Source of the DNA: a virus
IMG/VR virus record: IMGVR_UViG_3300020457_000037
Span: 1 to 34,380 of that record
Direction: 5' to 3' (one strand)
Length of the DNA: 34,380 nucleotides
Of this stretch, positions 20,338 through 34,021 are shown piece by piece. The position numbers were made by a program, and so were the translations under genes. The notes beneath the pieces were generated by a model. That model did not search any database. It saw only the letters and a list, made by a program, of their open reading frames with translations, and was not told the DNA's origin. Each line of letters starts with the position of its first letter. Position 1 is the first letter of the stretch.

Positions 20338-20357
20338 GGCGTGCTCTCCTTTAATTT

Positions 20358-20405
20358 GTTATATAAATCTAACACTTTTTTACGTAAAAGTAAAGGCTTT
20401 TTTTT
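20358..20405 (-). promoter_or_regulatory. Promoter-like module, copy 1 of 5 (before 3D-domain gene)
   Basis: On the minus strand, an eight-A tract is followed by GCCTTTACTTTTACGT, then AAAGTGTTAGATT and the -10-like TATAAC, with AAAGGAG and the ATG at 20337 close behind. There is no TTGACA-like box 17 bases before the -10. ACTTTT and AAAAGT form a dyad around the variable centre. The full pattern recurs at 24079, 31823, 32355 and 33894. Confidence 0.65.
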
Positions 20406-20423
20406 GCTTTTTTTAAAGTTTTT

Positions 20424-20558
20424 TTAATCAATTTCTAGATTATAGTTTTTAGATAATTCTATTTTCTCTTGTTGTCTTGATTTTTTCTTTTTTGATTTGT
20501 GTGCTTTCGTCGTCGGTATCGGAAAGTCAGACATTTTTGGTTTGTAGACTTTTTTCAT
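20424..20558 (-). CDS. Small Lys-rich protein (44 residues)
   Basis: A 44-codon ORF lies two bases after the stop of the upstream gene. GGGAG lies about five bases before the ATG. The product begins MKKVYKPKMSDFPIPTTKAH and then has a very basic tract (KSKKKKSRQQEK), suggesting nucleic-acid contact. In the same frame after its stop the sequence continues as KNFKKSKKKPLLL, close to the real C-terminus KNFKKYEKKPLRE of the 32382 gene. This suggests the promoter-like module moved together with a gene end, or that a stop has shortened this gene. Confidence 0.62.
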   Translation of the reverse strand: MKKVYKPKMSDFPIPTTKAHKSKKKKSRQQEKIELSKNYNLEID

Positions 20559-20560
20559 AA

Positions 20561-20716
20561 CTACTCCCAATCATCATCTGATTCGACGAATTGGTCATAA
20601 CCTTGATCTAAATTTTCATCGTCCATTTGTAGATCATCTAATAGTAATTCTATAGCTGCCCAGTCTTTATCATACAATGCAGCTTCTAAGCGTATTATTA
20701 TATCTTCTCGCTTCAT
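20561..20716 (-). CDS. Small acidic protein (51 residues)
   Basis: The frame is open from an ATG at 20821, but I prefer the ATG at 20716 because AGGAGA lies eight bases before it, while the upstream ATG has no clear ribosome site. The product starts MKREDIIIRLEAALYDKDWA and is helical then very acidic (DDLQMDDENLDQGYDQFVES). If the longer start is used, the product has 86 residues. The family is unknown. The gene is part of a run of small genes behind the SRPBCC-like gene. Confidence 0.62.
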   Translation of the reverse strand: MKREDIIIRLEAALYDKDWAAIELLLDDLQMDDENLDQGYDQFVESDDDWE

Positions 20717-20820
20717 AATATATGTCTCCTGCTGGTTCCCTACTAAGTATGGATAATCAGGTAAAATTAAACTGCTTATTGTTGTAGAATCTTTGTCAAC
20801 ATTATATTGTATATTAATCA

Positions 20821-21072
20821 TTACGCCTCTGCAAGTTTGTAATTTAAAGCTGGATATTTTTCACTTCTCATATTATTTACTTCTTGCCAATAATCAAATA
20901 TCATATGCTCAAGTATTTCTTGTGCGCAAGCATTAATATCTGTTGTTGCAAACTCTTTTTTTAATTCGACAACGTCGGGCAATATCTTCCAGAGTTTTAT
21001 TAACTCATTTTGTATTATTCCAAAGTCTAGTATTGGTGCAGCTTGATCTATCATTTTCTTTTCCCTATACAT
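20821..21072 (-). CDS. Hypothetical helical protein (83 residues)
   Basis: The product has 83 residues, with GAGGAAG about eight bases before the ATG, which follows the upstream stop directly. A second ATG six codons in (MIDQAAPIL) also has AGGG in front, so the start could be 21054. The protein is mostly helical, with aromatic residues in the middle (FDYWQEVNNM). There is no recognised domain. It is transcribed in a tight run with its neighbours. Confidence 0.65.
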   Translation of the reverse strand: MYREKKMIDQAAPILDFGIIQNELIKLWKILPDVVELKKEFATTDINACAQEILEHMIFDYWQEVNNMRSEKYPALNYKLAEA

Positions 21073-21300
21073 TTAAATATCTTCCTCTTCCTGTTTAGGC
21101 GTATCTGGCATTTTTATTATTTGAATTTTCATTTCTTCTAATTTGTTGATCCACTCTTCTAACAATTCTATTATTTTATTTTTTGTCACATCATGATCAT
21201 CGTTGTCTAATATCTTATCGACCCATTTTTTATATGTGCCTAGAAAACCAGACAACCATATTGCTATTTCAGACCTTTCTTCAGGCCAAGACTTCTTCAT
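21073..21300 (-). CDS. Hypothetical helical protein (75 residues)
   Basis: The product has 75 residues and starts MKKSWPEERSEIAIWLSGFL, with a GGAG-type site (AAGGAGACTATAATG). It is predicted to be two or three helices with many Trp residues for its size and an acidic tail (PKQEEEDI). It lies between the SRPBCC-like gene and another small unknown. I recognise no family. Confidence 0.68.
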   Translation of the reverse strand: MKKSWPEERSEIAIWLSGFLGTYKKWVDKILDNDDHDVTKNKIIELLEEWINKLEEMKIQIIKMPDTPKQEEEDI

Positions 21301-21310
21301 TATAGTCTCC

Positions 21311-21751
21311 TTAATTAAATTTGAAGAATAACTTATATCTAATCTTTCTAGAAATAAAGTATAGATTTATTAGTGCTTTATACAATAAGTCTAAAGCTTT
21401 ATTTTTTGTTGTGAACTCTATTTCATCAATAATAATTGTATTATCTTTTGATGGGCCGTGCTTTTCTATAGTGTGCCTATGCGACCAGAATTTAATTCCA
21501 AAGAAATTTCCGTCCTTAAGAATATCATTGAAATACAGTTTATTTCTGTCAGTGGTGTATGTTACAACTTTAAAAGTTATCAATCGTGATAACATTAGTA
21601 TTTTTGTTATTGCGCCACGTCTTAGTCCTCTGTGATGCACAACTTCACAACCTGCTGGCGTTAAGTATCTCAACAATTTTCCTTCTTTGTTTGTAAATTG
21701 TTTTTTAACAATCCAAAATGATTTATTTTTTAATACAGTTGTGAACTTCAT
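21311..21751 (-). CDS. SRPBCC (START-like) ligand-binding fold protein
   Basis: The product has 146 residues. The pattern fits the SRPBCC helix-grip fold in the cyclase/ligand-binding branch: an N-terminal strand, the loop LTPAGCEVVHHRGLRRGAIT, strands TFKVVTYTTDRNKLYFNDIL, then a SHRHTIEKHGPSKDNTIIID segment with the usual W-H-H-x-E turn and D-E-I-E-F strand, and a long C-terminal helix. Such proteins bind hydrophobic ligands in a cavity; the ligand here is unknown. The ribosome site is weak. No catalytic residue can be named. It sits between small genes on one side and the deformylase group on the other. Confidence 0.62.
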   Translation of the reverse strand: MKFTTVLKNKSFWIVKKQFTNKEGKLLRYLTPAGCEVVHHRGLRRGAITKILMLSRLITFKVVTYTTDRNKLYFNDILKDGNFFGIKFWSHRHTIEKHGPSKDNTIIIDEIEFTTKNKALDLLYKALINLYFISRKIRYKLFFKFN

Positions 21752-21758
21752 AATTTTA

Positions 21759-21932
21759 TTATTTCCAATAAATATCGCGCCGCAGTCCCTTAAGTAATAA
21801 AGCTTCCTCTATTTTTTCTGCTATCACTTTTCTAGCTGCAGAAGAGCATAAGTTAGTTTGTGTATCTGAAAATTTTTCTAATACTTCTTCAATCACTTTT
21901 TTATCTATTGTTATTTCTATTTTCTTTGACAT
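21759..21932 (-). CDS. Small helical protein (57 residues)
   Basis: I use the ATG at 21932, just after GGGGG and the stop of the mini-membrane gene upstream. An upstream start would lie within that other gene in another frame. The product begins MSKKIEITIDKKVIEEVLEK, with a beta strand followed by a helix, and has the Ser-Ala-Ala-Arg-Lys segment SSAARKVIAEKIEEALLLKG. A ribbon-helix-helix-like layout (short strand, two helices) is possible but not convincing. Confidence 0.62.
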   Translation of the reverse strand: MSKKIEITIDKKVIEEVLEKFSDTQTNLCSSAARKVIAEKIEEALLLKGLRRDIYWK

Positions 21933-21933
21933 A

Positions 21934-22080
21934 TTACCCCCATACCATAAAATAGCAATACACACCAGCAAGAAAAATCCATACAGCTATTTTTAAATAT
22001 TCCATAAGTTCATCTTGACGTGTAAACTTTACTGGACGTTTTCTTTTTTCCACTCTATCCCAATCACCTAAACGTCCCAT
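21934..22080 (-). CDS. Small membrane protein (48 residues)
   Basis: This 48-codon ORF fills what would otherwise be a gap. GGAG lies six bases before the ATG at 22080, and the stop ends one base before the ATG of the next gene. The N-terminal 28 residues are polar and basic (MGRLGDWDRVEKRKRPVKFT), and residues 29-47 form one membrane helix (LKIAVWIFLAGVYCYFMVW). The type is likely single-span with the N-terminus in the cytoplasm by the positive-inside rule. Confidence 0.72.
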   Translation of the reverse strand: MGRLGDWDRVEKRKRPVKFTRQDELMEYLKIAVWIFLAGVYCYFMVWG

Positions 22081-22259
22081 TACGCACTCCACTTCTTATC
22101 ATCTTCATAATCCTCATGGAGAAGTTGTTTATACTCCTCATCTTTATTAGTTATACTGTCATATAACCATTTTATATACCAACGAACTCTAGCACCAAGT
22201 TCCATATCATTTGGATATTTATCCACCATGTCTCTTATGATTTTTATAGGTTGTTTCAT
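22080..22259 (-). CDS. Small charged protein (59 residues), coupled to deformylase
   Basis: A 59-codon ORF starts at 22259 with an ATGA overlap on the deformylase stop and ends with a TAATG overlap on the next start, so it sits in perfect register with the operon. The product begins MKQPIKIIRDMVDKYPNDME, has an aromatic and basic centre (RVRWYIKWLYD) and an acidic C-terminus. It is helical, and the family is unknown. Confidence 0.72.
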   Translation of the reverse strand: MKQPIKIIRDMVDKYPNDMELGARVRWYIKWLYDSITNKDEEYKQLLHEDYEDDKKWSA

Positions 22260-22888
22260 TCCATTATCCAGCCTTCATTTATAAAATTCTGAGCCTTCTT
22301 ATATTTTATTACTTTAACAGCGTCTCCCTTTTTAAGAGTCACTAGTTGATTACGACCTATTTTCTTTTCAGTACGTCGTATTGTTGTGTTTACTTTTCTG
22401 TCCATACATACTACTCCATTTAAATGATCAATTTCATGCTGTACACATACAGCCTCTAACATTCTGAGCTCTTTGTCATTTTTTAATTTCTTTTTATCTT
22501 CCCAGCTACCTGCACCAGTTTCACCTGTCTCTACTCCTGTGAATATCCAGCTTCCTTCTACTTGTTCTGTCTTTACCTCGATCGTCTCGTACCGTTTGGT
22601 TCGTACTCCTTTGCCAGGGTAAGATAAACAACCTTCATAATAATTAATCTCATTTTCTTTCTTAACAATCTTCGGGTTGATGAGTACCAAAGGTTCACGA
22701 ACATTGACAACGGCCACTTGTGCATCAATTCCCACTTGATTAGCTGCCAACCCAATGCCGTCTTTTCTTTCGACAAGTATCTGAAATAGTTCTTTTGCAA
22801 TAACCAATCCTTCTTCAACTGTAACCTCCTTGAGCTTTTTATTTATGATAGGATTATCTTCTTTAAAACAATTAATTACTTTGGCCAT
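22256..22888 (-). CDS. def: Peptide deformylase
   Basis: The product has 210 residues. All three signature motifs are present: GIGLAANQVG (44-53), EGCLSYPG (85-92) and QHEIDHLNG (150-158). The Fe/Zn ligands are Cys87, His151 and His155, and Glu152 is catalytic. The enzyme removes the formyl group from new proteins. Phage deformylases are known in cyanophages, where they are thought to support the heavy synthesis of proteins during infection. Between the second and third motifs there is an inserted stretch of about 20 residues (VETGETGAGSWEDKKKLKND), and about 50 residues follow the last motif, so it is longer than minimal phage forms. CGGGAGTTAA precedes the ATG. Confidence 0.95.
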   Translation of the reverse strand: MAKVINCFKEDNPIINKKLKEVTVEEGLVIAKELFQILVERKDGIGLAANQVGIDAQVAVVNVREPLVLINPKIVKKENEINYYEGCLSYPGKGVRTKRYETIEVKTEQVEGSWIFTGVETGETGAGSWEDKKKLKNDKELRMLEAVCVQHEIDHLNGVVCMDRKVNTTIRRTEKKIGRNQLVTLKKGDAVKVIKYKKAQNFINEGWIME

Positions 22889-23058
22889 TTAACTCCCGGT
22901 TTCATCCAAGAAGTAGCACCAACTTTGTTTACATATAGTTGAGCATCTTCATCATTACGTGCTAAAAACTTTACAGGTACAGAGTCTTTACCTTTACCTT
23001 CAAGATAAGTGTATTCTCCATAACCTCTCCATTGACTTTTACTTTTCTTTTTTGGCAT
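22876..23058 (-). CDS. Small basic protein (60 residues)
   Basis: I chose the ATG at 23058, preceded by AAGGAGAACTATA, over an earlier in-frame start that would lie deep in the upstream gene. The product begins MPKKKSKSQWRGYGEYTYLE and has a beta-type centre (DSVPVKFLARNDEDAQLYVN). It overlaps the deformylase start by 13 bases. The family is unknown. Confidence 0.7.
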   Translation of the reverse strand: MPKKKSKSQWRGYGEYTYLEGKGKDSVPVKFLARNDEDAQLYVNKVGATSWMKPGVKWPK

Positions 23059-23230
23059 TATAGTTCTCCTTAACTTCTTTCCAAAGTTCGTTAATAGATT
23101 TAGTATCTCCACCTTGTTTTATGAAGGCTTCTTTTCTTGTCATTATAGTGAGCGGAACATCAGCCAAACCTGGTGGACGTCCCCATTCATCACACATAAT
23201 CTGTTCTTCTAACCATTCTTTTTTAGTCAT
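23039..23230 (-). CDS. Small hypothetical protein (63 residues)
   Basis: The product has 63 residues and starts MTKKEWLEEQIMCDEWGRPP. Its ATG overlaps the stop of the upstream 159-residue gene, with AGGAAAA before it, and its 3' end overlaps the next gene by 20 bases, including that gene's ribosome site. It is polar with no domain I recognise. The overlap suggests translational coupling. Confidence 0.66.
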   Translation of the reverse strand: MTKKEWLEEQIMCDEWGRPPGLADVPLTIMTRKEAFIKQGGDTKSINELWKEVKENYNAKKEK

Positions 23231-23709
23231 TATTTTCCTGCCTTGTGATTTAAGAAATCTTTTTGCGCTTCAATTGCCTTCTTAAGCTCTTTCTTCTCAG
23301 CTGCCATCTTTATAAGCTTCTTATTTTCTTTTTTTCTTTTAACTTCTTTTGCAGCAAGTCTTTCTTTCTTAATAGCATCAACGTCTGTGACTGGCCTCTT
23401 ACCTTTTAGTTTCGGCTGCTCCACACCCTTGTGGTAGACGTTGCCGGCTTTGTCTACAAATTCCTTCATCCACCTCCACCCACGTGGACGTCCAGTTGAT
23501 TTAGCAGATGCACCTTTTCCAAATAGTCTGTCTCTTTCAGAGTCAGACATTAGACTTAAACACTTTCTCATTGTAGCTGTACTACTTAGTACTGATACAG
23601 AATTTAAGCTGACGTTTGCAACAGGTTCACCTGTTTCTCTGCAATCCATATAAGCTACTTCATCTATAAAGTAACCACCATTTTTCTTGAATGTTTCTGA
23701 TTGATTCAT
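23230..23709 (-). CDS. Hypothetical protein with basic coiled-coil C-terminus
   Basis: The product has 159 residues, with AAAGGAG before the ATG. Residues 1-60 look globular with a Cys-containing segment (VAYMDCRETGEPVANVSLNS), residues 65-90 have GASAKSTGRPRGWRWMKEF, which resembles an exposed binding loop, and residues 110-159 are a Lys-rich coiled coil (KKERLAAKEVKRKKENKKL). The basic tail suggests nucleic-acid contact. The family is not recognised. Confidence 0.7.
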   Translation of the reverse strand: MNQSETFKKNGGYFIDEVAYMDCRETGEPVANVSLNSVSVLSSTATMRKCLSLMSDSERDRLFGKGASAKSTGRPRGWRWMKEFVDKAGNVYHKGVEQPKLKGKRPVTDVDAIKKERLAAKEVKRKKENKKLIKMAAEKKELKKAIEAQKDFLNHKAGK

Positions 23710-23729
23710 AAAAACTCCTTTATTTTAAA

Positions 23730-24062
23730 TTATGCTAAGTCGCCATACATTAGCAGTGAACATGTAACCAATTCATCACCGTCAGTCCACAATCTATTTT
23801 CTGGTAGATCATTGTATTCTCTGTAGACTTCGCCAGTTGTGTCGTTCGATATTTGTGTGATCTCTATTTCACCATTTGATTCATACCACTCTACGACGAT
23901 AACGTAATTATTAGCTAGTGCTTCATCACGTTCTGGGTGTGTAATTAATTTACTTTCAAATAGCAGCTGTGCTACTGTGGTTTCTCTAATACCAGAGCCA
24001 ACCTCATCAACTGCGATATTATCATTAGATCTAAAGCATTTTTCTTGCATATTTAAACTCAT
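23730..24062 (-). CDS. Hypothetical acidic protein (110 residues)
   Basis: The product has 110 residues and starts MSLNMQEKCFRSNDNIAVDE. It is acidic with beta-type stretches (NYVIVVEWYESNGEIEITQI). It is the first gene behind copy 2 of the promoter-like module, with the conserved GAGGTTATTA leader before the ATG. There is no recognised domain. Its placement directly behind the module marks it as an early-type gene in this reading. Confidence 0.68.
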   Translation of the reverse strand: MSLNMQEKCFRSNDNIAVDEVGSGIRETTVAQLLFESKLITHPERDEALANNYVIVVEWYESNGEIEITQISNDTTGEVYREYNDLPENRLWTDGDELVTCSLLMYGDLA

Positions 24063-24078
24063 TAATAACCTCTTATTT

Positions 24079-24128
24079 ATTATACCCTAATCTAGCCCTT
24101 TTTAGGGACAAAGTAAAGGCTTTTTTTT
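24079..24128 (-). promoter_or_regulatory. Promoter-like module, copy 2 of 5
   Basis: Minus strand: A-tract, GCCTTTACTTTGTCCC, a TAAAAAGGG half, GCTAGATT, four bases, then a perfect TATAAT and the AAATAAGAGGTTATTA leader ending at the 24062 ATG. The A-tract overlaps the final Lys codons and stop of the upstream membrane gene. This copy has the best -10 box of the five. Confidence 0.7.
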
Positions 24129-25056
24129 ACTTTTTTTTATTTTTTTTACTTAAGTCTCTTAAATCTACTGCGCCTTTAGGTAAGTCTCTATCATCATAAT
24201 GATGCCCATCATTTCCGTTTTGTCCTATAATATCCATTCGTTGTTCATCTTCTTCGGTATATAACAGCTCTTTTTTTGGTTTTTCTTTGTACATTTCCCA
24301 CCAACGCTTCTTGGTTTTGTTTTTTTGTTTTGAAACTACAGGGACACCTGCACTTAACTCAAATGCCATATTTGCCGCAATAACTAGTGATACTGCTAAC
24401 GGGTCAAATACAAATATCAATATGAATATAAAGAATTTTACAACTGTGTCTATCTCAGTGTTAAAAACTCTAGCAAGATATATTGCAGGACCAACATCAA
24501 TTCCTGTGTCTACGAGTATCGCTTTAAGATCACCGATTTCTTGCTTCACATCTAATGTAGATTGATTGAGCTCATCTATTTTTGGTTGATATTCTTCTCG
24601 TAGTTTTTTACGTGCTGTACGATAGTTGTCTGGTAGTTCTGCTATGGCATCTTCTAATTCTTGTTTTAGAAATATCTTATCTTCATTTAACTGTGCCAAA
24701 CGATCTTCTTTAAACATTAACACAGTAGATTGTTTTTCAAACTCTGTCGTAGCACCTTGATATGCATTTGACAGATATCCGAATATACCAGCTGATGTAA
24801 TCAAAATAAGAATTAATGTGCCGACTAATAAATAGTTTTTAAGAAACGTAGGTACCGTCTTCCAATATCTGTAGAGAAACGAGGCTGTAACAAGCTTGGC
24901 AAACTCTAAAGAGCCTGCCATAATAACCACACTCGTTTGAGCGCCGGCAAATAGTTTTGATAATCCAAATACAGAGAAAAATGCTGCACTGATTGCAACA
25001 GCTCCAGCTGCAGCAGCTACTAGGTACGGAAATATTCTTGAGTTTACAAAATCCAT
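24127..25056 (-). CDS. Multi-span membrane protein with internal coiled coil
   Basis: The product has 309 residues. Three membrane helices occupy about 9-37, 41-60 and 72-93 (LLVGTLILILITSAGIFGYL), a soluble coiled coil spans 105-175 (LNEDKIFLKQELEDAIAELP), and a fourth hydrophobic helix follows at about 205-230 (FFIFILIFVFDPLAVSLVIA). The C-terminal 75 residues are polar and end in KKNKKK. The ribosome site before the ATG is not convincing. The family is common in marine myovirus genomes in my memory but has no assigned function. A structural role in the inner membrane during infection is possible. Confidence 0.75.
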   Translation of the reverse strand: MDFVNSRIFPYLVAAAAGAVAISAAFFSVFGLSKLFAGAQTSVVIMAGSLEFAKLVTASFLYRYWKTVPTFLKNYLLVGTLILILITSAGIFGYLSNAYQGATTEFEKQSTVLMFKEDRLAQLNEDKIFLKQELEDAIAELPDNYRTARKKLREEYQPKIDELNQSTLDVKQEIGDLKAILVDTGIDVGPAIYLARVFNTEIDTVVKFFIFILIFVFDPLAVSLVIAANMAFELSAGVPVVSKQKNKTKKRWWEMYKEKPKKELLYTEEDEQRMDIIGQNGNDGHHYDDRDLPKGAVDLRDLSKKNKKK

Positions 25057-25062
25057 ATAATA

Positions 25063-25248
25063 TTAAATATCGACAAATTCAGCTTCTAATATGTTTTGAC
25101 AAAAGTAATATTCGTTGTTATTTTTAAGAACTATATCTGCATTCCATTGTTTCTTCCAAAAGTCCACACCTTTAACATCAGAGCTCGGGACAGATTGTTT
25201 TCCTTTTACAAGGTACAACTGCCCCGAAACTTCGATGATTTGTTTCAT
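25063..25248 (-). CDS. Hypothetical protein (61 residues)
   Basis: The product has 61 residues and starts MKQIIEVSGQLYLVKGKQSV, a beta hairpin pattern, followed by KGVDFWKKQWNADIVLKNNN and YYFCQNILEAEFVDI. It is a compact, probably all-beta small protein. Its ATG overlaps the stop of the mini-ORF upstream as TAATG. I recognise no family. Confidence 0.65.
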   Translation of the reverse strand: MKQIIEVSGQLYLVKGKQSVPSSDVKGVDFWKKQWNADIVLKNNNEYYFCQNILEAEFVDI

Positions 25249-25337
25249 TACAAAGCCACCCTAAGCCTACACACAATTCCCGTTATCCTTTGGATATAGT
25301 GTAAGAAACGGAAAATCACCTCTTTGTAATTAAACAT
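25248..25337 (-). CDS. Possible mini-protein (29 residues)
   Basis: A 29-codon ORF starts at 25337, with GGATAAGG seven bases before the ATG, and ends in a TAATG overlap on the next gene. The product starts MFNYKEVIFRFLHYIQRITG, amphipathic and basic. It closes the gap between the Hsp20 gene and its downstream neighbour, in line with the packing elsewhere. It could be chance. Confidence 0.45.
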   Translation of the reverse strand: MFNYKEVIFRFLHYIQRITGIVCRLRVAL

Positions 25338-25344
25338 TATAACC

Positions 25345-25794
25345 TTATCCTATTTTGACAAATGTCTTTTTAGGTTTTTCTGGCTCAATCTTCGGTATCT
25401 CAATGGATAAAATCCCATCTTTGAAATTAGCCGAAATATTATCACCGTCAAGTGATTCACCTAGTGTGAACTTCCTCTCAAAAGCAGAATGCTTTAACTC
25501 ACGCCTGAGAACTGTAGCTTGGGTATCTTCATCAAAACCGTGCTTACTGCCTTTTATTGTCATAACACCATCTTCAACCTCGACATCAAGATTCTTCTTG
25601 TCTATCCCAGGAATTTCAGCAACTACGCCAACTTTATTTTCATACTCATACACATTAACTTTTGGATATGCTGTACTAGAAAATGGGTTAACTCCAACAG
25701 TCTGTGCGACTTCTGGAAAGTTCGTTTCAAACATACTATCAAACATCTTATCAAAAGGTGCTAGAAAGTCGTCTCTTTTAATTACTAAGCTCAT
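25345..25794 (-). CDS. Small heat-shock protein, Hsp20/alpha-crystallin
   Basis: The product has 149 residues. The alpha-crystallin domain spans about 42-138: PKVNVYEYENKVGVVAEIPG, then VEVEDGVMTIKG, the variable loop, and the hallmark GILSIEIPK (127-135). The tail ends in FVKIG, an I-x-I-type anchor for oligomers. Hsp20 proteins hold unfolding clients without ATP. Phage copies are common in T4-like marine phages and may help in virion assembly or host stress. AAGGAG lies upstream. The region before the gene carries two identical palindromes, making this one of the few genes here with visible local control. Confidence 0.93.
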   Translation of the reverse strand: MSLVIKRDDFLAPFDKMFDSMFETNFPEVAQTVGVNPFSSTAYPKVNVYEYENKVGVVAEIPGIDKKNLDVEVEDGVMTIKGSKHGFDEDTQATVLRRELKHSAFERKFTLGESLDGDNISANFKDGILSIEIPKIEPEKPKKTFVKIG

Positions 25795-25816
25795 TGTTTT
25801 TCTCCTTATGTTATTC

Positions 25817-25900
25817 TTATGAACTAACTTGAATACCTAACCAATTAGCGTATTCATAGTATATAGAGAAAAAACTATGCCAAACCTCACTATATGTCAT
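25817..25900 (-). CDS. Possible mini-protein (27 residues) between palindromes and Hsp20
   Basis: A 27-codon ORF begins inside the first palindrome at 25900 and ends 22 bases before the Hsp20 ATG. AAGGA lies eight bases before its ATG. The product starts MTYSEVWHSFFSIYYEYANW and is rich in aromatic residues. A second short frame (14 codons) begins in the other palindrome and ends in an ATGA overlap on this start, like a leader. This may be a real peptide or a by-product of the palindromes. Confidence 0.4.
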   Translation of the reverse strand: MTYSEVWHSFFSIYYEYANWLGIQVSS

Positions 25901-25908
25901 AATGACAT
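25894..25908. promoter_or_regulatory. Palindrome, copy 1 (operator-like) upstream of Hsp20
   Basis: ATGTCATAATGACAT is a perfect inverted repeat of seven bases around one central A. An identical copy lies with its centre 41 bases away, close to four DNA turns, so two dimers could sit on the same face. Both copies have TAT on the left. The location upstream of a chaperone gene suggests an operator. Confidence 0.6.
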
Positions 25909-25934
25909 CCTTTTTTTTAAAACTATTTTTTTAT

Positions 25935-25949
25935 ATGTCATAATGACAT
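25935..25949. promoter_or_regulatory. Palindrome, copy 2 (operator-like) upstream of Hsp20
   Basis: This is the second exact ATGTCATAATGACAT. It abuts the stop codon of the 25949-26233 gene and is separated from copy 1 by an A/T-only tract apart from three bases. Its stem is too short, and not followed by U residues on the coding strand, so it is unlikely to be a terminator for the upstream genes. Confidence 0.6.
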
Positions 25950-26233
25950 TATCTTAATTCTGCGCCAATAACTTTTGCACATGTTCTTATTCTATCATCC
26001 CATTTATTTCTTTTTATAGAATCTAAAATTTGTTGTGACTGTGATCTGTTAAACGGCTTATCGATAACTTTTTCTCCAGAAGTGATAACTGTGTTATCAG
26101 ACTTTGCGCATGTCTCGAGAAATTGTAACACTTCTTGGAACTGATTGTATGCTTGAACATTTGCACCAATATTTCTAGTCTGAAGTGTCAATAATATGTA
26201 CTGGTCGTATCCCGATAATTTATTGTATTCCAT
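25949..26233 (-). CDS. Hypothetical protein (94 residues)
   Basis: The product has 94 residues, mostly helical, starting MEYNKLSGYDQYILLTLQTR. The central segment is QAYNQFQEVLQFLETCAKSD, and the end is RIRTCAKVIGAELR. It has two Cys residues but no metal motif. It starts one base before the stop of the four-helix membrane gene. The family is unknown. Confidence 0.65.
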   Translation of the reverse strand: MEYNKLSGYDQYILLTLQTRNIGANVQAYNQFQEVLQFLETCAKSDNTVITSGEKVIDKPFNRSQSQQILDSIKRNKWDDRIRTCAKVIGAELR

Positions 26234-26234
26234 T

Positions 26235-27869: not shown

Positions 27870-27870
27870 T

Positions 27871-28049: not shown

Positions 28050-28980
28050 GTAACTCAAGATATTTCTCAACTGCAAGCTCCTTGTGTTTAGCTTCAACAA
28101 CAATATCAAGATCATAGCCGTAAGTGTCAATCTTCTGATAGACATAATCAGAGTGTGCTTGCGGCCTTATTTTTGGATCATTCTTTTCTTCACTTCTTGA
28201 TTCAGAATAGTGGAAACACGGTGTGATTCCTTCAGGCCAAGTTGAAGCAGCTAGCTCAACTGCAGCACTCTCAGTAAGATCTCCAGGACAAAACCTGTGG
28301 TGATGATAATCGAAAACAATTGGTATGCCAATACGTTTGTAGACATAATCATATAATTCCTGAGTTGAGTAACAAGTTGCTTTATCATCGTTTTCAACAG
28401 TTAGACGTGTCTGGACTGATTCTGGTAGGCGCTTAAAGTTCTGAACAAATCTTTCTATTGCATTTTCTTTTTCGCCATAAACACCACCGGCATGAATATT
28501 AATTTTATTGTACGGTGTTCTTGATAAACCCATCATGTCAAATACTTCACCATGTATTGTAAGATCGTTAATACAGTTTTGTACTACGTGCTCGTGAGGT
28601 GATGTAAGAACATTGAATTGTCCAGGGTGTGTTGTCAACCTTAGACCGTGTGTGTTTGCCTTTGTTCCTGCTGAGCGCAACCACTGTTTAATCTCTTCTA
28701 GATCTTTTAGGTCTGACCATTCATACTCTGTCTTCCAAGGGATCATCGTTGATGATATCCTAAACAGCTTATAACCCTTTTCAATATTCCAGTCTACTAT
28801 CTTATCTAGATCTTTTACATTCTTAAGAATCAGCTCTGATGCAAGGTCTGTGCCCTTTGCTTCAAATGTGCGCTTAATCATTTTACGACCTGTTGTGATT
28901 CTTCCTATACCTTTCGGTTGTCCGCCATATTGCTGCGGATAGCTAAGTTGCATATTAATGCATGCATAACCTAAATTCAT
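28042..28980 (-). CDS. uvsE: UV-damage endonuclease, UVDE/UvsE family
   Basis: The start is the ATG at 28980, with AGAGG seven bases before it; the longer frame upstream overlaps another small gene. The product of 312 residues opens MNLGYACINMQLS, the family's usual first strand. TIM-barrel signatures follow: the FRISSTMIPW motif, LTTHPGQFNVLTSPHE, NIHAGGVYGEK, LTVENDD and FDYHHHRF, with the His, Asp and Glu residues that bind the metal cluster. The enzyme nicks DNA 5' to UV photoproducts and other lesions, starting repair in the dark. It lies two genes from an MBD4-like glycosylase and close to a ligase, forming a repair group. Confidence 0.93.
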   Translation of the reverse strand: MNLGYACINMQLSYPQQYGGQPKGIGRITTGRKMIKRTFEAKGTDLASELILKNVKDLDKIVDWNIEKGYKLFRISSTMIPWKTEYEWSDLKDLEEIKQWLRSAGTKANTHGLRLTTHPGQFNVLTSPHEHVVQNCINDLTIHGEVFDMMGLSRTPYNKINIHAGGVYGEKENAIERFVQNFKRLPESVQTRLTVENDDKATCYSTQELYDYVYKRIGIPIVFDYHHHRFCPGDLTESAAVELAASTWPEGITPCFHYSESRSEEKNDPKIRPQAHSDYVYQKIDTYGYDLDIVVEAKHKELAVEKYLELHG

Positions 28981-28990
28981 TTGTGCCTCT

Positions 28991-29131
28991 TTATTTCTTT
29001 TTAACACGACGTCTGCGATATTTTCTTTTTGGTTTAACTTCTTTCTTCTCTTCATGCCAAGGGTATAATGTGTATTCTTTCTTACCAAGAATAAACTCCT
29101 CGACTTGTTTCATTACTTCTATTATCTTCAT
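28991..29131 (-). CDS. Small basic protein (46 residues) between two repair genes
   Basis: This 46-codon ORF starts in a TAATG overlap on the glycosylase stop and ends ten bases before the UVDE start. The product starts MKIIEVMKQVEEFILGKKEY and ends in a very basic tract (KPKRKYRRRRVKKK), which strongly suggests DNA or RNA contact. It could serve as a repair accessory, but this is inference from charge and position. Confidence 0.68.
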   Translation of the reverse strand: MKIIEVMKQVEEFILGKKEYTLYPWHEEKKEVKPKRKYRRRRVKKK

Positions 29132-29553
29132 TAACTATGTCCCATTTCTGTTTGCATCTCAAGTGCTGTAGCCAAATATAAATTTAACACCTTGTCAGTT
29201 GGCCTCACATTAAGATTGTTGTTTTGAAATATTTCCCATGAGTCTTTTGCATACTTTCCGATTCCGTGTAAATCAATTGGATCATTAAATCCGTCTATAT
29301 ATTCTTGACTGAATCGTTTGAGTGTTGCTGCTCTCTTGTATTGCATACCGAGCGGCATCAGCAGTTCTGAAAGTTCTGCTAGCTTAGCATTTGCTAGTGC
29401 TTGTGGAGTTGGATACGTTTTAAATAGTTTGTGTCGTACCTTATCCACTTGTTTTCTAGTTGTGAGATTTAACATAATACAACAGACCAACATTTTCCAT
29501 GGGTCATTTTTATATATATCTTGCAAAAGTCTCAAATTGCGAATTTTTATCAT
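29131..29553 (-). CDS. MBD4-like HhH-GPD DNA glycosylase
   Basis: The product has 140 residues and resembles the C-terminal glycosylase domain of eukaryotic MBD4: NDPWKMLVCCIMLNLTTRKQ, a YPTPQALANAKLAELSELL segment, MPLGMQYKRAATLKRFSQEY, the helix-hairpin-helix DLHGIGKYAKDSWEIF (94-109), then RPTDKVLNLYL, where Asp120 aligns with the catalytic Asp560 of human MBD4. There is no C-terminal four-Cys cluster of the endonuclease III type, which also fits the MBD4 branch. MBD4 removes thymine or uracil mispaired with G. The methyl-CpG domain is absent. The start shares an ATGA with the upstream gene. Substrate preference is inferred. Confidence 0.82.
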   Translation of the reverse strand: MIKIRNLRLLQDIYKNDPWKMLVCCIMLNLTTRKQVDKVRHKLFKTYPTPQALANAKLAELSELLMPLGMQYKRAATLKRFSQEYIDGFNDPIDLHGIGKYAKDSWEIFQNNNLNVRPTDKVLNLYLATALEMQTEMGHS

Positions 29554-29765
29554 ATAACTTCGACTATGTTCGATGCCTTAACTGAAGTTAGTTCCCATGA
29601 GTTTGGATTAGTAGACATAAGCTCACCAATCTTATTCTCAACAACTGAAACAGTAGTTGCTTCTCCGACAAGAATCTCTTCTTTTAATTTCTTGATTCTT
29701 GTATTTCCTTTATTACCTACAGGAACTTCTATTTCCTGTACAACTGTTGCTATATAGTATTTCAT
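29550..29765 (-). CDS. DUF4494-like small phage protein
   Basis: The product has 71 residues: an N-terminal strand (MKYYIATVVQEIE), a KKLKEEILVGEATTVSVVEN segment, then a helix and closing strand (SWELTSVKASNIVEVI). The pattern of a short hairpin, a central V-A or V-G-EA helix and a final S-x-x-N-V-E strand resembles DUF4494, a family found in phages and Bacteroidetes. The identity is by eye only. It shares an ATGA with the glycosylase gene. Confidence 0.6.
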   Translation of the reverse strand: MKYYIATVVQEIEVPVGNKGNTRIKKLKEEILVGEATTVSVVENKIGELMSTNPNSWELTSVKASNIVEVI

Positions 29766-29780
29766 TTATTTTCCTTTATT

Positions 29781-29879
29781 TTAGAATTTGAAAAAATCTT
29801 CATAATCATCGGCGTACATTTTTGCCACGAAATACAACACTACTGCTGTAATTCCTAATCCGAGATATAAACCTAACAT
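29781..29879 (-). CDS. Mini membrane protein (32 residues)
   Basis: This 32-codon ORF has a very good ribosome site (AGGAGTTAACATG). Residues 2-20 form one membrane helix (LGLYLGLGITAVVLYFVAK), followed by an acidic and aromatic end (MYADDYEDFFKF). It fills the gap between two genes. Confidence 0.72.
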   Translation of the reverse strand: MLGLYLGLGITAVVLYFVAKMYADDYEDFFKF

Positions 29880-29888
29880 GTTAACTCC

Positions 29889-30212
29889 TTATTTAATTTG
29901 TAAATTTTGTAACCACTCAGGTACATTCTTTTCCATATAATGCTGTATCACAAATGCTTCTGCTAAGTGTGAGAAGAACCAAAAGAAACAAAGTATCGGA
30001 ACGTATATTCTATAGTCCAAACCTATAACAGAAACACCTAACCAAGTAAAGAATATCATACCCATTGACTTAGTTAGAAAACTAATACCACTAAATCCCA
30101 GACTCATTATGCTTCCTCTTGCGACAACTACATAAACTCCGATGGCTAGATGTAATAAGTTTAAGAATGACGGTGCAATCACACCCATTAAAAAGTATAA
30201 ACCTATTTCCAT
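29889..30212 (-). CDS. Multi-span membrane protein (107 residues)
   Basis: The product has 107 residues with three hydrophobic stretches (about 4-32, 44-64 and 66-85; YVPILCFFWFFSHLAEAFVI) and a polar tail (HYMEKNVPEWLQNLQIK). The start is a TAATG overlap on the DNA-ligase stop. The function is unknown. The third stretch has a conserved-looking His-Leu-Ala-Glu that might face the membrane core. Confidence 0.72.
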   Translation of the reverse strand: MEIGLYFLMGVIAPSFLNLLHLAIGVYVVVARGSIMSLGFSGISFLTKSMGMIFFTWLGVSVIGLDYRIYVPILCFFWFFSHLAEAFVIQHYMEKNVPEWLQNLQIK

Positions 30213-31570
30213 TAGACTTGCCTTCCGTTTTCATAAACTGTTTTACAGACAGGAAATCTCAATGAGTATTTGCCTGTCTTGTCTTGTGATTCTTCAAAGT
30301 ACTGTACAGTGATTTCTTTACCAACAATATCTTTTGGATTATTATAGTAGTGATTTCTCTGATCCAATGTAAAACCAGATCCAACAGATACTGTATTACC
30401 CTTGTGTTCTATTAGCACGTTTGTCATAGTCTGTATTGTGACTTCTTGCTTTAGCTCTTTATCAACGATTCTAAATGGTCCGTACTCGATGTCTTTGACT
30501 ATATATTCTTCATCATGCATCTTCTTTACTTTAAGAATATCATTAGAACGTTTACCTTTGTAAGGCGCATCTTTACGAAGCATAATTCCTTCCCAACCCA
30601 TTGATTCAGCCATCTCTAACAAGCCAATAATCTCATCTTTATCTTCAACAAACTCATGAGTTACGATATCAATTGGAAAGTCATGATCCCATAATGGATT
30701 TCCAATCTTCCAGTGTATATCATCATAACGTGCCGCAAAAGCTCTGTGTTTGCTTGATTCACCAGAATCAAACTCATCAAGTGTAAGAATATCGAACACC
30801 TTAAATTTAGGATTTTTAATTGTGTGATCTTTGCGTCTGATCTCTTTAATAACTGATTGGAAGTCTTCATCACCGTTATCATCAACAATACATAACTCAC
30901 CGTCCAATACAACATTTTCTTTCATAATAGAGTGTTCAGCAATTGAATCTGTAATATTACTTAGCGTAAAAAATTCTTTACCTTGACGTGAAAAGTATTT
31001 TACAGTACCGTTTTCAATACGCATAAGAACTCTTACACCGTCAAGTTTTCTGGACCACATCCAACGATCTTCAGTAGGATCAAAACGTTTTGCGAAGTCT
31101 TCGTACTTAGTAGCTAGTGCAACATCAAATGTAGGAATCAAACCAGGAATAACTCTGTTAATTAGCTTTGCATCACAACGTGCTTTTAAGTTTCTGCCGA
31201 AAACAAGTGATAACGGTAAGTCCCATGTTGTACCAATTCTAAGTCTGTAATTGTTTACACAACCTAGCGCGCTGTGACCTGTGATGTTTCTGTTGCTCAG
31301 CATCTGAAGAAGATCGAATATAGTGCCATCGAACTCGAAGTCGAGATCTTCACGTTTAAGAATATTCTTCCAAGTTACACCGTACTGCATATAAGAATTA
31401 TACATCATCGAAACTAGCTTTTGTAATTCTGTGTTAGGAACTAAGTAGTCTTTTAAAACTTGGACTTTGTCATTTGTGCTAGTTGTAGCATTAAGACGTT
31501 CATGGAGAATTTGAAGATTGTGAAGCAATTCTCTATCTCTTGGTGTATTAACTAGTCTACGATTATTCAT
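30212..31570 (-). CDS. 30: ATP-dependent DNA ligase
   Basis: The product has 452 residues, near T4 gp30 (487). All nucleotidyltransferase motifs are seen: I, RKLDGVRV with the AMP-binding Lys175; III, VVLDGELCIV with Glu225; IIIa, FKVFDILTL (256-264); IV, EGIMLRK (327-333); V, LKVKK (346-350). The C-terminal 100 residues form the OB fold (YIVKDIEYGPFRIV ... GKYSLRFPVCK). The N-terminal 160 residues are a helical DNA-binding region like that of T4 ligase. The enzyme seals nicks, for Okazaki joining and repair. The 3'-phosphatase gene next but one upstream would supply clean 3' ends. The ATG overlaps the previous stop. Confidence 0.95.
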   Translation of the reverse strand: MNNRRLVNTPRDRELLHNLQILHERLNATTSTNDKVQVLKDYLVPNTELQKLVSMMYNSYMQYGVTWKNILKREDLDFEFDGTIFDLLQMLSNRNITGHSALGCVNNYRLRIGTTWDLPLSLVFGRNLKARCDAKLINRVIPGLIPTFDVALATKYEDFAKRFDPTEDRWMWSRKLDGVRVLMRIENGTVKYFSRQGKEFFTLSNITDSIAEHSIMKENVVLDGELCIVDDNGDEDFQSVIKEIRRKDHTIKNPKFKVFDILTLDEFDSGESSKHRAFAARYDDIHWKIGNPLWDHDFPIDIVTHEFVEDKDEIIGLLEMAESMGWEGIMLRKDAPYKGKRSNDILKVKKMHDEEYIVKDIEYGPFRIVDKELKQEVTIQTMTNVLIEHKGNTVSVGSGFTLDQRNHYYNNPKDIVGKEITVQYFEESQDKTGKYSLRFPVCKTVYENGRQV

Positions 31571-31809
31571 TATACGAACTCCGGGTGACCGTTAAGTGCA
31601 GCATTAAAGTCTGGATATAAATCACAAAGATCATCTAGTGATTTTATAGTTCCTTCGAAACCTGGCATATCTTCTTGATCATCAAAACTAGCTGTGATGA
31701 ATGGACCGTTCTCATCAACATCGACATCGAAGTCGCCTTCAATATAGTCTGGAACATCTCTATCCAGATCGATTTCTGTTGAAATAAAGTTTGTGTTTGT
31801 GTTTTTCAT
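31570..31809 (-). CDS. Small very acidic protein (79 residues)
   Basis: The product has 79 residues with a high Asp/Glu content (STEIDLDRDVPDYIEGDFDV) and few basic residues. It is the first gene behind promoter-like module 3 and is coupled to the ligase by a one-base overlap. Strong negative charge and early-type placement suggest a DNA mimic or a binder of host nucleic-acid proteins, but this is only a hypothesis. The family is unknown. Confidence 0.7.
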   Translation of the reverse strand: MKNTNTNFISTEIDLDRDVPDYIEGDFDVDVDENGPFITASFDDQEDMPGFEGTIKSLDDLCDLYPDFNAALNGHPEFV

Positions 31810-31822
31810 AATAACCTCTTAT

Positions 31823-31874
31823 TTAATATGCCTTAACTTAACACTTTTTCGCGACAAAGTAAAGGCTTTTTTTT
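31823..31874 (-). promoter_or_regulatory. Promoter-like module, copy 3 of 5 (before ligase operon)
   Basis: Minus strand: A-tract, GCCTTTACTTTGTCGCGA, AAAAGTGTTAAGTT, then CATATTAA as -10-like box, and AAATAAGAGGTTATT before the ATG at 31809. The third box is GTGTTAAGTT rather than GTGTTAGATT. ACTTT and AAAGT make a dyad around TCGCGA. Confidence 0.65.
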
Positions 31875-31891
31875 AATTATTTTCACTTTTT

Positions 31892-32338
31892 TTAGAAGTC
31901 ACCTTCTGCAACTTGCCAAACATCCATCCCTTCTCTTCTCCACATATCAACAACTTTCTTTCTATCATCAACAACCAGGAATACAGAGTCTTTACCTAAC
32001 TCATGTAACCATTCTCTTTTTAGTTCTGCATCATCAACAAACTTCATGTGCTGTGGTCTCATTCTTAATATATCCCATTTTATCTCGTTATCTTCCAACC
32101 ACTTCTTTGTAGCATTCTCAGTGACGTCTAACCGACCAGAAAATATTACAACTCTAAAACCTTTTTCCCACATCATCTTTGCAAGCAACACGACGGGCAA
32201 ATTAGGTTCATCTAACTTTATATTCTTAGGATCAAAGAATTTGTCCCAATCCATCTTACCGTTATCCTTAGTAGACAGATTGCGACGTTTCTCTATATCG
32301 GCTAGTGTGCCGTCCAAATCAAATATTACTGTGTTCAT
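31892..32338 (-). CDS. HAD polynucleotide 3'-phosphatase, Pnkp C-terminal domain-like
   Basis: The ATG at 32338 with AGAGG before it gives 148 residues. The HAD motifs are FDLDGTLAD (Asp7, Asp9), FSGR (66-69) and VVDDRKKVV (Asp124, Asp125). The ending VVDMWRREGMDVWQVAEGDF matches the end of the 3'-phosphatase half of T4 polynucleotide kinase (pseT), including the WQVA-GDF signature. The kinase half is missing and no separate kinase gene is seen here. The enzyme would remove 3' phosphates so that ligase can act. It is the only gene directly behind module 4. Confidence 0.85.
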   Translation of the reverse strand: MNTVIFDLDGTLADIEKRRNLSTKDNGKMDWDKFFDPKNIKLDEPNLPVVLLAKMMWEKGFRVVIFSGRLDVTENATKKWLEDNEIKWDILRMRPQHMKFVDDAELKREWLHELGKDSVFLVVDDRKKVVDMWRREGMDVWQVAEGDF

Positions 32339-32354
32339 ATAACCTCTCATTTAT

Positions 32355-32404
32355 TTTATATTAGAATCTAACACTAAAAACCTATTCGCGTAAAGGCTTT
32401 TTTT
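32355..32404 (-). promoter_or_regulatory. Promoter-like module, copy 4 of 5 (before 3'-phosphatase)
   Basis: Minus strand: A-tract, GCCTTTACGCGAATAGG, then TTAGTGTTAGATT, four bases, TATAAA and AAATGAGAGGTTAT before the ATG at 32338. The first half lies within the last codons and stop of the upstream Cys-rich gene (KKPLRE). The CTTT after CCTTTAC is replaced by GCGAA in this copy. Confidence 0.62.
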
Positions 32405-32618
32405 CATATTTTTTAAAGTTTTTATGGTCAAGGTCCAACTCAAACAGGCAGTCAAAACATATAGAATAACCTCCAGCCATGTCTTTATTACGATCACACC
32501 TATCACAATGCTCAGCAACGTCTGTATTGTTCTTTATATGTTTGGGTGTGTAAGGGCACATAAGACAACCGTGACCGCAACAATAACCTCGATCTAATAA
32601 GAATTCTTTAGACAGCAT
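32382..32618 (-). CDS. Cys-rich DUF5522-like zinc protein
   Basis: The product has 78 residues. RGYCCGHGCLMCPYTP (11-26) is the core motif of DUF5522, small bacterial proteins with a CC-G-GC-CPY cluster. A second metal-type set follows: HCDRCDR, then YSICFDCLFEL, giving eight or nine Cys residues in all, enough for two zinc sites. The end KNFKKYEKKPLRE overlaps promoter-like module 4. The function of DUF5522 is unknown. The ribosome site is weak, consistent with coupling to the mini-gene upstream. Confidence 0.72.
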   Translation of the reverse strand: MLSKEFLLDRGYCCGHGCLMCPYTPKHIKNNTDVAEHCDRCDRNKDMAGGYSICFDCLFELDLDHKNFKKYEKKPLRE

Positions 32619-32738
32619 CTACAGCGGCAGACCACTCAATAAGATGTGAGTGTCTATCCAGACTTTAATTAAAAATCCCACACTCACACCCAGGGCAAAT
32701 CCGATCAAAATTAATATTATGTCTTTATCATTATTCAT
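32619..32738 (-). CDS. Mini membrane protein (39 residues)
   Basis: A 39-codon ORF starts at 32738 and ends directly before the next ATG. Residues 6-25 form one membrane helix (DIILILIGFALGVSVGFLIK), followed by a short polar end (VWIDTHILLSGLPL). The Shine-Dalgarno site is poor (AAAAAG). Confidence 0.58.
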   Translation of the reverse strand: MNNDKDIILILIGFALGVSVGFLIKVWIDTHILLSGLPL

Positions 32739-32768
32739 GTGCTTTTTAACGAAAAATTTTTTTCCAGG

Positions 32769-33008
32769 CTAATTCAATTCAGGGCTCAACTCATACGCCT
32801 CATCAACAACCAGAAAGGTCAATATCCATTTCCGGTCAGGACCGTCATCCCACTCCTCATAACCGGCCAATTTACATGTATTGGTGGTCATACGCTTTAC
32901 AACAGGATCCATCTGGTCCTCGCGATCGCATATAATTAGTATCTCGTTGCCCCGCGTCCGGACCATAACTTTGTTATCGGGCCTATTATAAGTGTTATCA
33001 GGCTTCAT
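32769..33008 (-). CDS. Hypothetical protein (79 residues)
   Basis: I use the ATG at 33008, with AAGGAG four bases before it, because the longer frame runs into the upstream membrane gene. The product starts MKPDNTYNRPDNKVMVRTRG and has two strands (NEILIICDRED, KWILTFLVVDEAYEL) around a Lys/Arg/Trp-rich centre, suggesting a small alpha/beta fold. It is the first gene of the GC-richer block reading from the left. The family is unknown. Confidence 0.65.
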   Translation of the reverse strand: MKPDNTYNRPDNKVMVRTRGNEILIICDREDQMDPVVKRMTTNTCKLAGYEEWDDGPDRKWILTFLVVDEAYELSPELN

Positions 33009-33243
33009 TACGCTCCTTGCGTATCCGATACGGATTCCACTCTTCGCCGTCCTCCACCCAGTCATCTAAGTCCCAGTCGGGCTCGCGAATACCACGTTTG
33101 ACTTCGAGATTGTCTAGCTCTTCCGTGGCATGCAGGAGTGCACTTTCAAGCTCTTCCTTTTTATGCCTATACCATGCGAGCCGACCGATATACCATGCCC
33201 TAGCTAATAAGAATCCGATTGCCGCATATAATAGTTCATTCAT
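32998..33243 (-). CDS. Small membrane-anchored acidic protein (81 residues)
   Basis: The product has 81 residues, with GGGAG before the ATG. Residues 3-20 are a membrane anchor (ELLYAAIGFLLARAWYIG), followed by a basic stretch and an acidic, helical tail (ATEELDNLEVKRGIREPDWD, then DDWVEDGEEW). The positive charges next to the anchor place the tail inside. It overlaps the next gene by 11 bases. Confidence 0.7.
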   Translation of the reverse strand: MNELLYAAIGFLLARAWYIGRLAWYRHKKEELESALLHATEELDNLEVKRGIREPDWDLDDWVEDGEEWNPYRIRKERNEA

Positions 33244-33267
33244 AATAACTCCCTTTAGATATAAGTA

Positions 33268-33879
33268 TCACGATCCCTTGGCTTTATTCATACTAGCTGG
33301 TAATCTATGACCCTCTAATTTTAACTGTTGCTCGATCCGAGACTCTAAAATCTGTTTCCAATTGAGCGGTGCGCTAAGACCCTCTATCAGACTATTAGTA
33401 ATATTAATTCGCTTCGCCTTAGCCGTAGGGGTGGGGACAATAGCAATAAACTTAATATGCGTATAATCTAACTCTCTCATAATCCGTACTATATTAACAT
33501 TAGTAGGATCAGGCACCTTAGGCCCCTTACCTGTACTACCAACGGTACGGTGTTCACCCCGCTCATACATCTCCAGCCGCTGCCCGAACTTGTAAGTCTC
33601 ACCCACCTTTAATATTTCTATGTCTTCGGATCCGGGAGTATAAGCTATCATAATATAGGCACCGGGTCCTACACTGTTCAAACGCTTCCGATCCGTACCC
33701 CGGCTAGTTCGGTAGTCTGTATGTAATGTGAAGGTCGATCCCAAGAGCTTGTTGGTTGGGTTGGTCCACGGATCCGATATCTCCAAGTCTCCTAGTATTT
33801 CACATTGCAACTCATCATCCGGCTTGGAGCCGTATTTGCTAAGCTCGAGTATCTTTTGTAATGTCTTAGTGTATTTCAT
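33268..33879 (-). CDS. GIY-YIG-like nuclease superfamily protein
   Basis: The product has 203 residues. The core region has GPGAYIMIAY (71-80, the GIY position), ILKVGETYKFGQRLEMYERG (89-108, with KVG for YIG and Arg101), and a later LNWKQILESRIEQQL (172-186) with a Glu at 180 or 183. This order and spacing suit the GIY-YIG fold, seen in homing and restriction nucleases and in phage host-attack proteins. KVG in place of YIG is a variant, and activity is uncertain. It is behind module 5 with the GAGGTTACTT leader, and lies in the GC-richer block. Confidence 0.58.
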   Translation of the reverse strand: MKYTKTLQKILELSKYGSKPDDELQCEILGDLEISDPWTNPTNKLLGSTFTLHTDYRTSRGTDRKRLNSVGPGAYIMIAYTPGSEDIEILKVGETYKFGQRLEMYERGEHRTVGSTGKGPKVPDPTNVNIVRIMRELDYTHIKFIAIVPTPTAKAKRINITNSLIEGLSAPLNWKQILESRIEQQLKLEGHRLPASMNKAKGS

Positions 33880-33889
33880 AAGTAACCTC

Positions 33890-34021
33890 TTAATTTATAA
33901 GTAAATCTAACACTTCTCGGGGTAAAAGTAAAGGTTTATTTTCAACTATTTCGGTAGGGGCTTCTACGGTATACCGTATTGATATATATTTTAGTATAGG
34001 GTTAAAAAGTATACGTGACAT
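33890..34021 (-). CDS. Possible small protein (43 residues) overlapping module 5
   Basis: A 43-codon ORF starts at 34021 with AAGG eight bases before it and stops ten bases before the 33879 ATG. The product starts MSRILFNPILKYISIRYTVE and ends NKPLLLPREVLDLLIN. Its last third is the promoter-like module read in the frame that gives KPLLL. It may be a real gene whose end carries the module, or an accidental frame through a control region. Confidence 0.4.
   Translation of the reverse strand: MSRILFNPILKYISIRYTVEAPTEIVENKPLLLPREVLDLLIN
33894..33942 (-). promoter_or_regulatory. Promoter-like module, copy 5 of 5 (before GIY-YIG-like gene)
   Basis: Minus strand: AAAATAAACCTTTACTTTTA, CCCCGAGAAGTGTTAGATT, TACT, then TATAAA and TTAAGAGGTTACTT before the ATG at 33879. 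The A-tract and the G of GCC are degraded, while CCTTTACTTTTA and AAGTGTTAGATT are kept. It lies in DNA of higher GC content than the other copies, so its conservation is informative. Confidence 0.65.
33965..33978. promoter_or_regulatory. 14-base perfect palindrome upstream of module 5
   Basis: TACGGTATACCGTA is its own reverse complement. It lies about 20 bases upstream of the A-tract of module 5, between a terminator and the promoter-like module, and inside the possible 43-codon ORF. An operator is possible. No second copy was seen in the window. Confidence 0.4.

Follow-up and report, generated by a model that had tools for sequence, protein, structure and literature searches.

The question raised by this locus is what kind of promoter is formed by a set of repeated intergenic sites in the genome of an uncultured marine phage. 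The window analyzed here is a complete IMG/VR record of 34,380 bases, probably a fragment of a larger genome, and the minus strand is its gene strand over nearly the whole length. A preliminary description reported five promoter-like sites on this strand, which were thought to have no normal −35 box and perhaps to work with a phage factor. Re-reading of the sequence bears out five repeated sites, all on the minus strand (Table 1), with CTTTAC elements that start at plus-strand coordinates 33933, 32395, 31864, 24118, and 20395. In all five copies, the elements follow the same order: A-tract, CCTTTAC, centre, TARRTT, YA, a GAGGTTA or GGAGAGC leader, and ATG (hereafter, the module). Copy 4 differs in letters; it has CCTTTACGCG, where CCTTTACTTT had been given. 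Measured between the last bases of CTTTAC and TARRTT, four copies have a distance of 24 bases and copy 4 (32395) has 25, exactly as claimed; the leader types likewise agree (GAGGTTA-type in copies 2–5 and GGAGAGC in copy 1).

Table 1. Putative promoter modules in the window and the genes behind them. Box assignments and start points are predictions.
Feature	Position	Strand	Candidate −35 box	Spacer	Candidate −10 box	Predicted +1	Leader	ATG	Remarks
Module copy 1	20338..20425	-	TTTACT 20394-20389	17 bp	TAGATT 20371-20366	A 20360	GGAGAGC	20337	UP-like A-tracts
Module copy 2	24063..24148	-	TTTACT 24117-24112	17 bp	TAGATT 24094-24089	A 24083	GAGGTTATTA	24062	
Module copy 3	31810..31894	-	TTTACT 31863-31858	17 bp	TAAGTT 31840-31835	A 31829	GAGGTTATT	31809	Heads DNA ligase operon
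Module copy 4	32339..32425	-	TTTACG 32394-32389	18 bp	TAGATT 32370-32365	A 32359	GAGGTTAT	32338 (likely; ORF list had 32350)	Spacer-19 class
Module copy 5	33880..33963	-	TTTACT 33932-33927	17 bp	TAGATT 33909-33904	A 33898	GAGGTTACTT	33879	Weak A-tract
Gene after copy 1	19822..20337	-							171 aa, function not recognised, phrog_21574; module also in four other contigs of the group (orthologous family 4)
Gene after copy 2	23730..24062	-							110 aa, function not recognised
ATP-dependent DNA ligase, second gene after copy 3	30212..31570	-							phrog_114 E=1e-71
Polynucleotide kinase 3'-phosphatase-like (HAD_PNKP), after copy 4	31892..32338	-							PHROG 415/505; PF25109 E=1e-27
Gene after copy 5	33268..33879	-							203 aa, function not recognised; G001 ortholog with module too

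The composite pattern CTTTAC-N18/19-TARRTT-N4-YA occurs five times on the gene strand of the window and is absent from the opposite strand, whereas 300 first-order Markov (dinucleotide) shuffles of the window have a mean of 0.007 and a maximum of one occurrence. Because this pattern was drawn up after the sites were known, the recurrence of the module in related contigs provides independent and stronger support. With a two-part family matrix, for which the training set took in four window copies and left out copy 4, the window copies score 35–54 bits (copy 4, 35 bits), and 1.5 Mb of second-order Markov sequence gives no score above 8.

Related contigs were found by a ligase query and a pattern scan, and the whole records were then searched and read. 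The module is present in about 20 related uncultured contigs, many of which are overlapping or near-identical; the distinct contig groups that carry it share roughly 74–85% DNA identity. The preliminary description had staked its reading on the presence of the module upstream of genes in related phages, and this is the pattern found in these contigs. More distant contigs with the shared ligase lack the module, and neither the window DNA nor the module consensus, used as queries, found a relative among cultured phages. The nearest baseplate protein (45%) is that of Microcystis phage Mel-JY01; in this phage and in immuto, the nearest cultured phages by baseplate, there are no module sites beyond the control level. 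The group has no close cultured relative, and one of its members (G016) encodes a DnaE-type polymerase. The sole match in the genome collection (L079), a contig in a Planctomycetaceae bin, was rejected as a clue to the host; the stretch of it that was read has phage-like sequence at one end, and it is a probable chimera.

The reported lack of a −35 box does not hold. TTTACT (TTTACG in copy 4) is located 17 bp (18 bp in copy 4) upstream of TAGATT or TAAGTT, and it had been overlooked because the downstream YATNAW box was taken as the −10 element. TARRTT is a better −10 candidate than the YATNAW box. When CTTTAC-N-TARRTT was searched in all contigs with N from 10 to 30, 27 distinct sites were found at N18 and 11 at N19, compared with 0–5 at every other length. 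This single peak corresponds to a −35/−10 geometry of 17–18 bp and agrees with sigma70-type promoters in both the distance between hexamers and the placement of a leaderless ATG 6 nt past the −10 hexamer. Generic sigma70 patterns match in the window no more often than by chance, and plain hexamer matching was therefore not counted as evidence; TTGAC/TATAAT pairs at 17–18 bp spacing are not enriched either. The family was partly collected with patterns containing TTTAC, TTT, and TARRTT, such that those letters are to some extent conserved by construction. The independent evidence therefore consists of the spacing, the flanks (A-tracts), the YA, and the leader. Within the module −10, T-12, A-11, and T-7 are present, and positions −10, −9, and −8 are R, R, and T. 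TARRTT matches TATAAT at three or four of six positions, with T at −8 (27/27 aligned sites, TARRTT itself being in the search pattern) where sigma70 prefers A, and the sigma preference of the host may differ. As for an extended −10, TG is found at −15/−14 in the GTGT copies, and GG or GC in the others.

The box previously described as TATAAT-like (YATNAW) begins exactly 4 bases past TARRTT. At the predicted start point (column 35 of the alignment), A is present in 41/41 modules, preceded by a pyrimidine in 41/41 and followed by T in 35/41, whereas the last position of the box, equivalent to −7, is unconserved (A12/T11/C4). Because the pyrimidine-then-A pattern is constant and the last position variable, the A of YA(T), 6 bases past TARRTT, is best read as the transcription start, and the box is probably not a −10 element. 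Leaderless relatives point in the same direction. In two thymidylate-kinase-like genes (G016, 30225; G020, 16805; 307 aa each), the ATG lies on the predicted +1 A, the P-loop follows directly after it, and there is no in-frame start upstream. The ATG of an 81-aa gene (G016, 51636) is likewise on the predicted +1, as are those of genes of 182 and 157 aa, though these two have upstream in-frame starts. In G002, G004, and G009, the start of the conserved gene is 11–13 bases further downstream. As a −10 element cannot overlie the first codon of its own transcript, the YATNAW box is excluded as the −10 for leaderless copies. Such members indicate the start base without RNA data.

Upstream of the −35 candidate, three A-tracts are found about 10 bp apart (−66 to −60, −55 to −49, and −46 to −39), and the autocorrelation of the A fraction peaks at lag 10. 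At −44, −43, −42, and −40, positions outside the search pattern, the A fraction is 0.98–1.00 in the 41 modules. Given this 10-bp phasing, the tracts resemble UP elements or curved DNA and would fit a UP element. At the other end of the module, the AAGAGGTTA leader is present at 18 of 81 candidate starts with a module vs. three of 3,798 others; these counts take in nested starts, and only the contrast is meaningful.

Taken together, the modules are with high probability strong promoters that resemble the early promoters of T4 in their build and are used by the housekeeping-type RNA polymerase holoenzyme of the host. The sequences themselves show the anatomy, the register, the conservation, the gene context, and the leaderless coincidence; the sigma70-type recognition, the strength, and the early timing are inferred. 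In such a promoter, the three phased A-tracts would serve as a UP element that binds the alpha C-terminal domains, TTTACT at −35 to −30 would be the −35 box, and TARRTT, after a spacer of 17–18 bp and sometimes with TG at −15/−14, would be the −10 box. Transcription would start 6 bases past the −10 box, at the A of YA(T), and the transcript would carry a short leader with GAGGTTA as a Shine–Dalgarno sequence, or no leader where the start point and the ATG coincide. Separate transcription units of early or middle genes (those of DNA metabolism and numerous small genes of no recognised function) would begin at re-used copies of the module, and structural genes would be served by a different element. 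The phage factor proposed previously is not needed for this anatomy, yet one may exist. The T at −8 and the lack of TATAAT suggest that the main sigma factor of the host reads TARRTT, that a strong UP element and −35 box compensate, or that the polymerase is modified.

Other assignments of the elements have to be weighed against this housekeeping-type promoter. The middle-type promoter first proposed, with YATNAW as the −10, no −35, and CCTTTACTTT...AAAAGTG as a phage activator site in a MotA-like logic, appears very improbable. Although the YAT part is highly conserved and an activator box does replace the −35 in T4 middle promoters, the −7 equivalent of the box is variable, the ATG of leaderless relatives falls within the box and hence places it no longer upstream of +1, and CTTTAC and TARRTT are paired in a strict 17–18 bp geometry. 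In addition, sigma70 region 2/4 domains, the only transcription factors covered by the search, were found in none of the phage contigs; these are fragments, and the missing parts of the genomes could encode a phage sigma or appropriation factor. This result also bears on a dedicated holoenzyme, in which a phage-encoded or host alternative sigma factor, or a phage protein that binds RNA polymerase, would read TARRTT and part of the spacer. The use of TARRTT in place of TATAAT throughout, the lack of enrichment of TTGAC/TATAAT pairs, and the conservation of the spacer within subclasses would be accommodated by such a factor. However, the UP element, −35 box, spacing, and start geometry are exactly of the housekeeping type, and copying can equally explain the spacer, which makes a dedicated holoenzyme quite unlikely. 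A further reading, in which a phage-modified or phage-specified polymerase recognizes the constant TARRTT together with the conserved spacer, and in which the phages own a promoter class that moves with its ribosome-binding leader from gene to gene and from phage to phage as a mobile regulatory cassette, is considered unlikely as well.

The conservation of the spacer within subclasses extends far beyond the needs of a plain sigma70 promoter, and two further explanations concern this region. The ACTTTT/AAAAGT dyad, described as present in several copies, is complete in copy 1 only; copies 2, 3, and 5 have part of it, and copy 4 has none. In the spacer-18 class, the outer CTTT/AAAG arms are constant (21–22 of 22 distinct cores), but for the inner four pairs complementarity is limited to 9–13 of the 22, with no compensation among these cores, and the spacer-19 and CTTTCA variants have no dyad. 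These observations do not sustain a dyad for a dimeric activator as a general feature; with a dyad that is uncompensated and not present in spacer-19 copies, at most a subset of modules could have a dimeric regulator. A housekeeping promoter whose spacer holds an operator (a CTTT-TCGCGA-AAAG dyad), at which a phage repressor or activator would control early genes, is favored by the constant arms and by CTTTGTCGCGAAAAAG, which is palindromic at 14/16 positions. Nevertheless, the left arm was chosen by the search pattern itself (TTT), and this explanation is rather improbable given the behavior of the inner pairs and the variants without a dyad. The spacer may instead be conserved purely from recent copying of a mobile or recombining intergenic cassette and not through any function, a doubtful though not negligible explanation that is compatible with the housekeeping-type promoter. 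An identical 31-base core precedes non-homologous genes in the window (copy 4) and in G016, two identical cores are found in L004, and near-identical spacers precede non-homologous genes. Together with the near confinement of the AAGAGGTTA leader to module genes, these patterns agree with the earlier proposal that the module is copied as a unit, and they are taken as evidence that the cores, often with the leaders, spread by copying. On the other hand, the carrier contigs have diverged to 74–85% DNA identity while the cores are near-identical, such that selection or continuing exchange would be needed as well.

Across the related contigs, the genes downstream of the module belong to 20 families. 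The recognised functions are mostly in DNA metabolism (the DNA ligase operon, polynucleotide kinase 3'-phosphatase, DnaE-type polymerase, thymidylate-kinase-like proteins, and an AAA ATPase), one RNA-ligase match is weak, and no recognised virion proteins are present among the 20 families. The previous assignment to a promoter family, probably early or middle, is supported. In module-free intergenic DNA, 8-mer enrichment revealed another element, ATATTTAT, which is present in 10/10 contigs tested, often about 25–55 bases upstream of structural-region genes, and biased toward the gene strand (64 vs. 19 on the opposite strand in twelve contigs). ATATTTAT is a probable late promoter; the T4 late motif TATAAATA shows no clear enrichment. 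The module and ATATTTAT appear to split the genome much as the T4 early and late promoters do, with the timing itself a prediction. With these two elements, candidate promoters can be mapped across a group of uncultured marine myoviruses, with probable early units behind the module and probable late units behind ATATTTAT.

Among known systems, promoters recognized by the Bacteroidetes sigma factor have the form TTTG ... TAnnTTTG, and Bacteroidetes mostly do not use Shine–Dalgarno sequences. The module shares TAnnTT in the −10, but a promoter of this type was rejected because there is no TTTG at −33 and no following TG, and Shine–Dalgarno-like sites are found upstream of 231 of 451 called genes. 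Sigma70/sigma-A consensus promoters with a UP element and an extended −10 share the element order, the 17–18 bp spacer, and the start distance; they differ in the −10, which in the module matches at only three or four of six positions, and in the presence of all elements together, which most host promoters do not show. The T4 middle promoters, in which a MotA box at −30 is combined with a −10, also have a conserved upstream block and several copies before replication genes, whereas the module has an in-register −35 and no MotA box, and its formerly proposed −10 coincides with +1.

The closest resemblance is to the early promoters of T4-type phages. A literature search for the exact module consensus, thin on subscription journals, found nothing relevant; however, contrary to the earlier statement that no such consensus has been described, a very similar one has been published for T4-type early promoters (PMC1524935; PMC2988021). 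These promoters have GTTTAC at −36 to −31 (in RB43, position −36 is either G or C), an A-rich stretch at −40 to −44, A-11, and T-7 (PMC1524935), and those of T4 are of the UP/−35/TGn/−10 type with further consensus (PMC2988021). As a control, NTTTAC-N18-TAnnnT was found 16 times on 50 kb of the T4 gene strand, compared with 0–3 times at other spacings. The module and the early promoters of T4, RB69, RB49, RB43, 44RR, and Aeh1 share the A-rich UP region, (G/C)TTTAC at −36 to −31, N18 to TAnnnT with T-12/A-11/T-7, a partial TG at −15/−14, and many copies upstream of early genes, the timing for the module being a prediction. In contrast, the module has C at −36, TARRTT with T at −8 where T4 has TATAAT, and a conserved spacer and leader, and the phages that carry it differ from the Straboviridae (T4-like genomes) in their DnaE-type polymerase and lack of a close cultured relative. 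For this polymerase, this isolation, and the R R T in its −10, we do not class the module among the T4 early promoters, although it appears to work like one. A T4-early-type architecture alongside an unrelated replication polymerase suggests convergence on the capture of the host polymerase.

Upstream of copy 5 of the early-promoter-like module, the palindrome TACGGTATACCGTA has a counterpart, TACGGCATGCCGTA, at the orthologous locus of the related phage contig G001 (L040, 1630), in which the sequence change is compensated. This palindrome may possibly serve as an operator. The terminator-like hairpin near the same copy was noticed by eye; its loop of 10 bases made the scan miss it. In both the window and the related contig G011, a different palindrome, ATGTCATNATGACAT, overlaps the codon at which a small gene (product beginning MTYSE or MTYGE) probably starts.

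Additional features in the window
Feature	Position	Strand	Remark
Peptide deformylase gene	22256-22888		
Hsp20 gene	25345-25794		
Palindrome TACGGTATACCGTA	33965-33978		Upstream of module copy 5
Terminator-like hairpin GGGGCTCTC...GAGAGCTCC, then T run	about 34050-34083	minus	Just upstream of copy 5
Perfect palindrome ATGTCATNATGACAT	25894-25908, 25935-25949		Two copies; also G011 6257
ATATTTAT element	18096, 2611, 602, 21776	minus	About 25-45 bases upstream of genes

A stretch belonging to a Planctomycetaceae metagenome bin (CAJXFK010000002.1) has phage-like sequence with two modules at one of its ends (L079, 1-750); the contig is probably chimeric. In the related contig G010, a module precedes a gene for a 1033-aa protein of unknown function (L050, 720-3818), which starts 5 nt past the predicted +1; the sole match of this protein is a weak one to an RNA ligase.

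Among ten related contigs, ATATTTAT is over-represented in intergenic DNA without the module and often precedes genes of the structural region. This element is probably a late promoter. In reverse complement, the T4 late TATAAATA reads TATTTATA.
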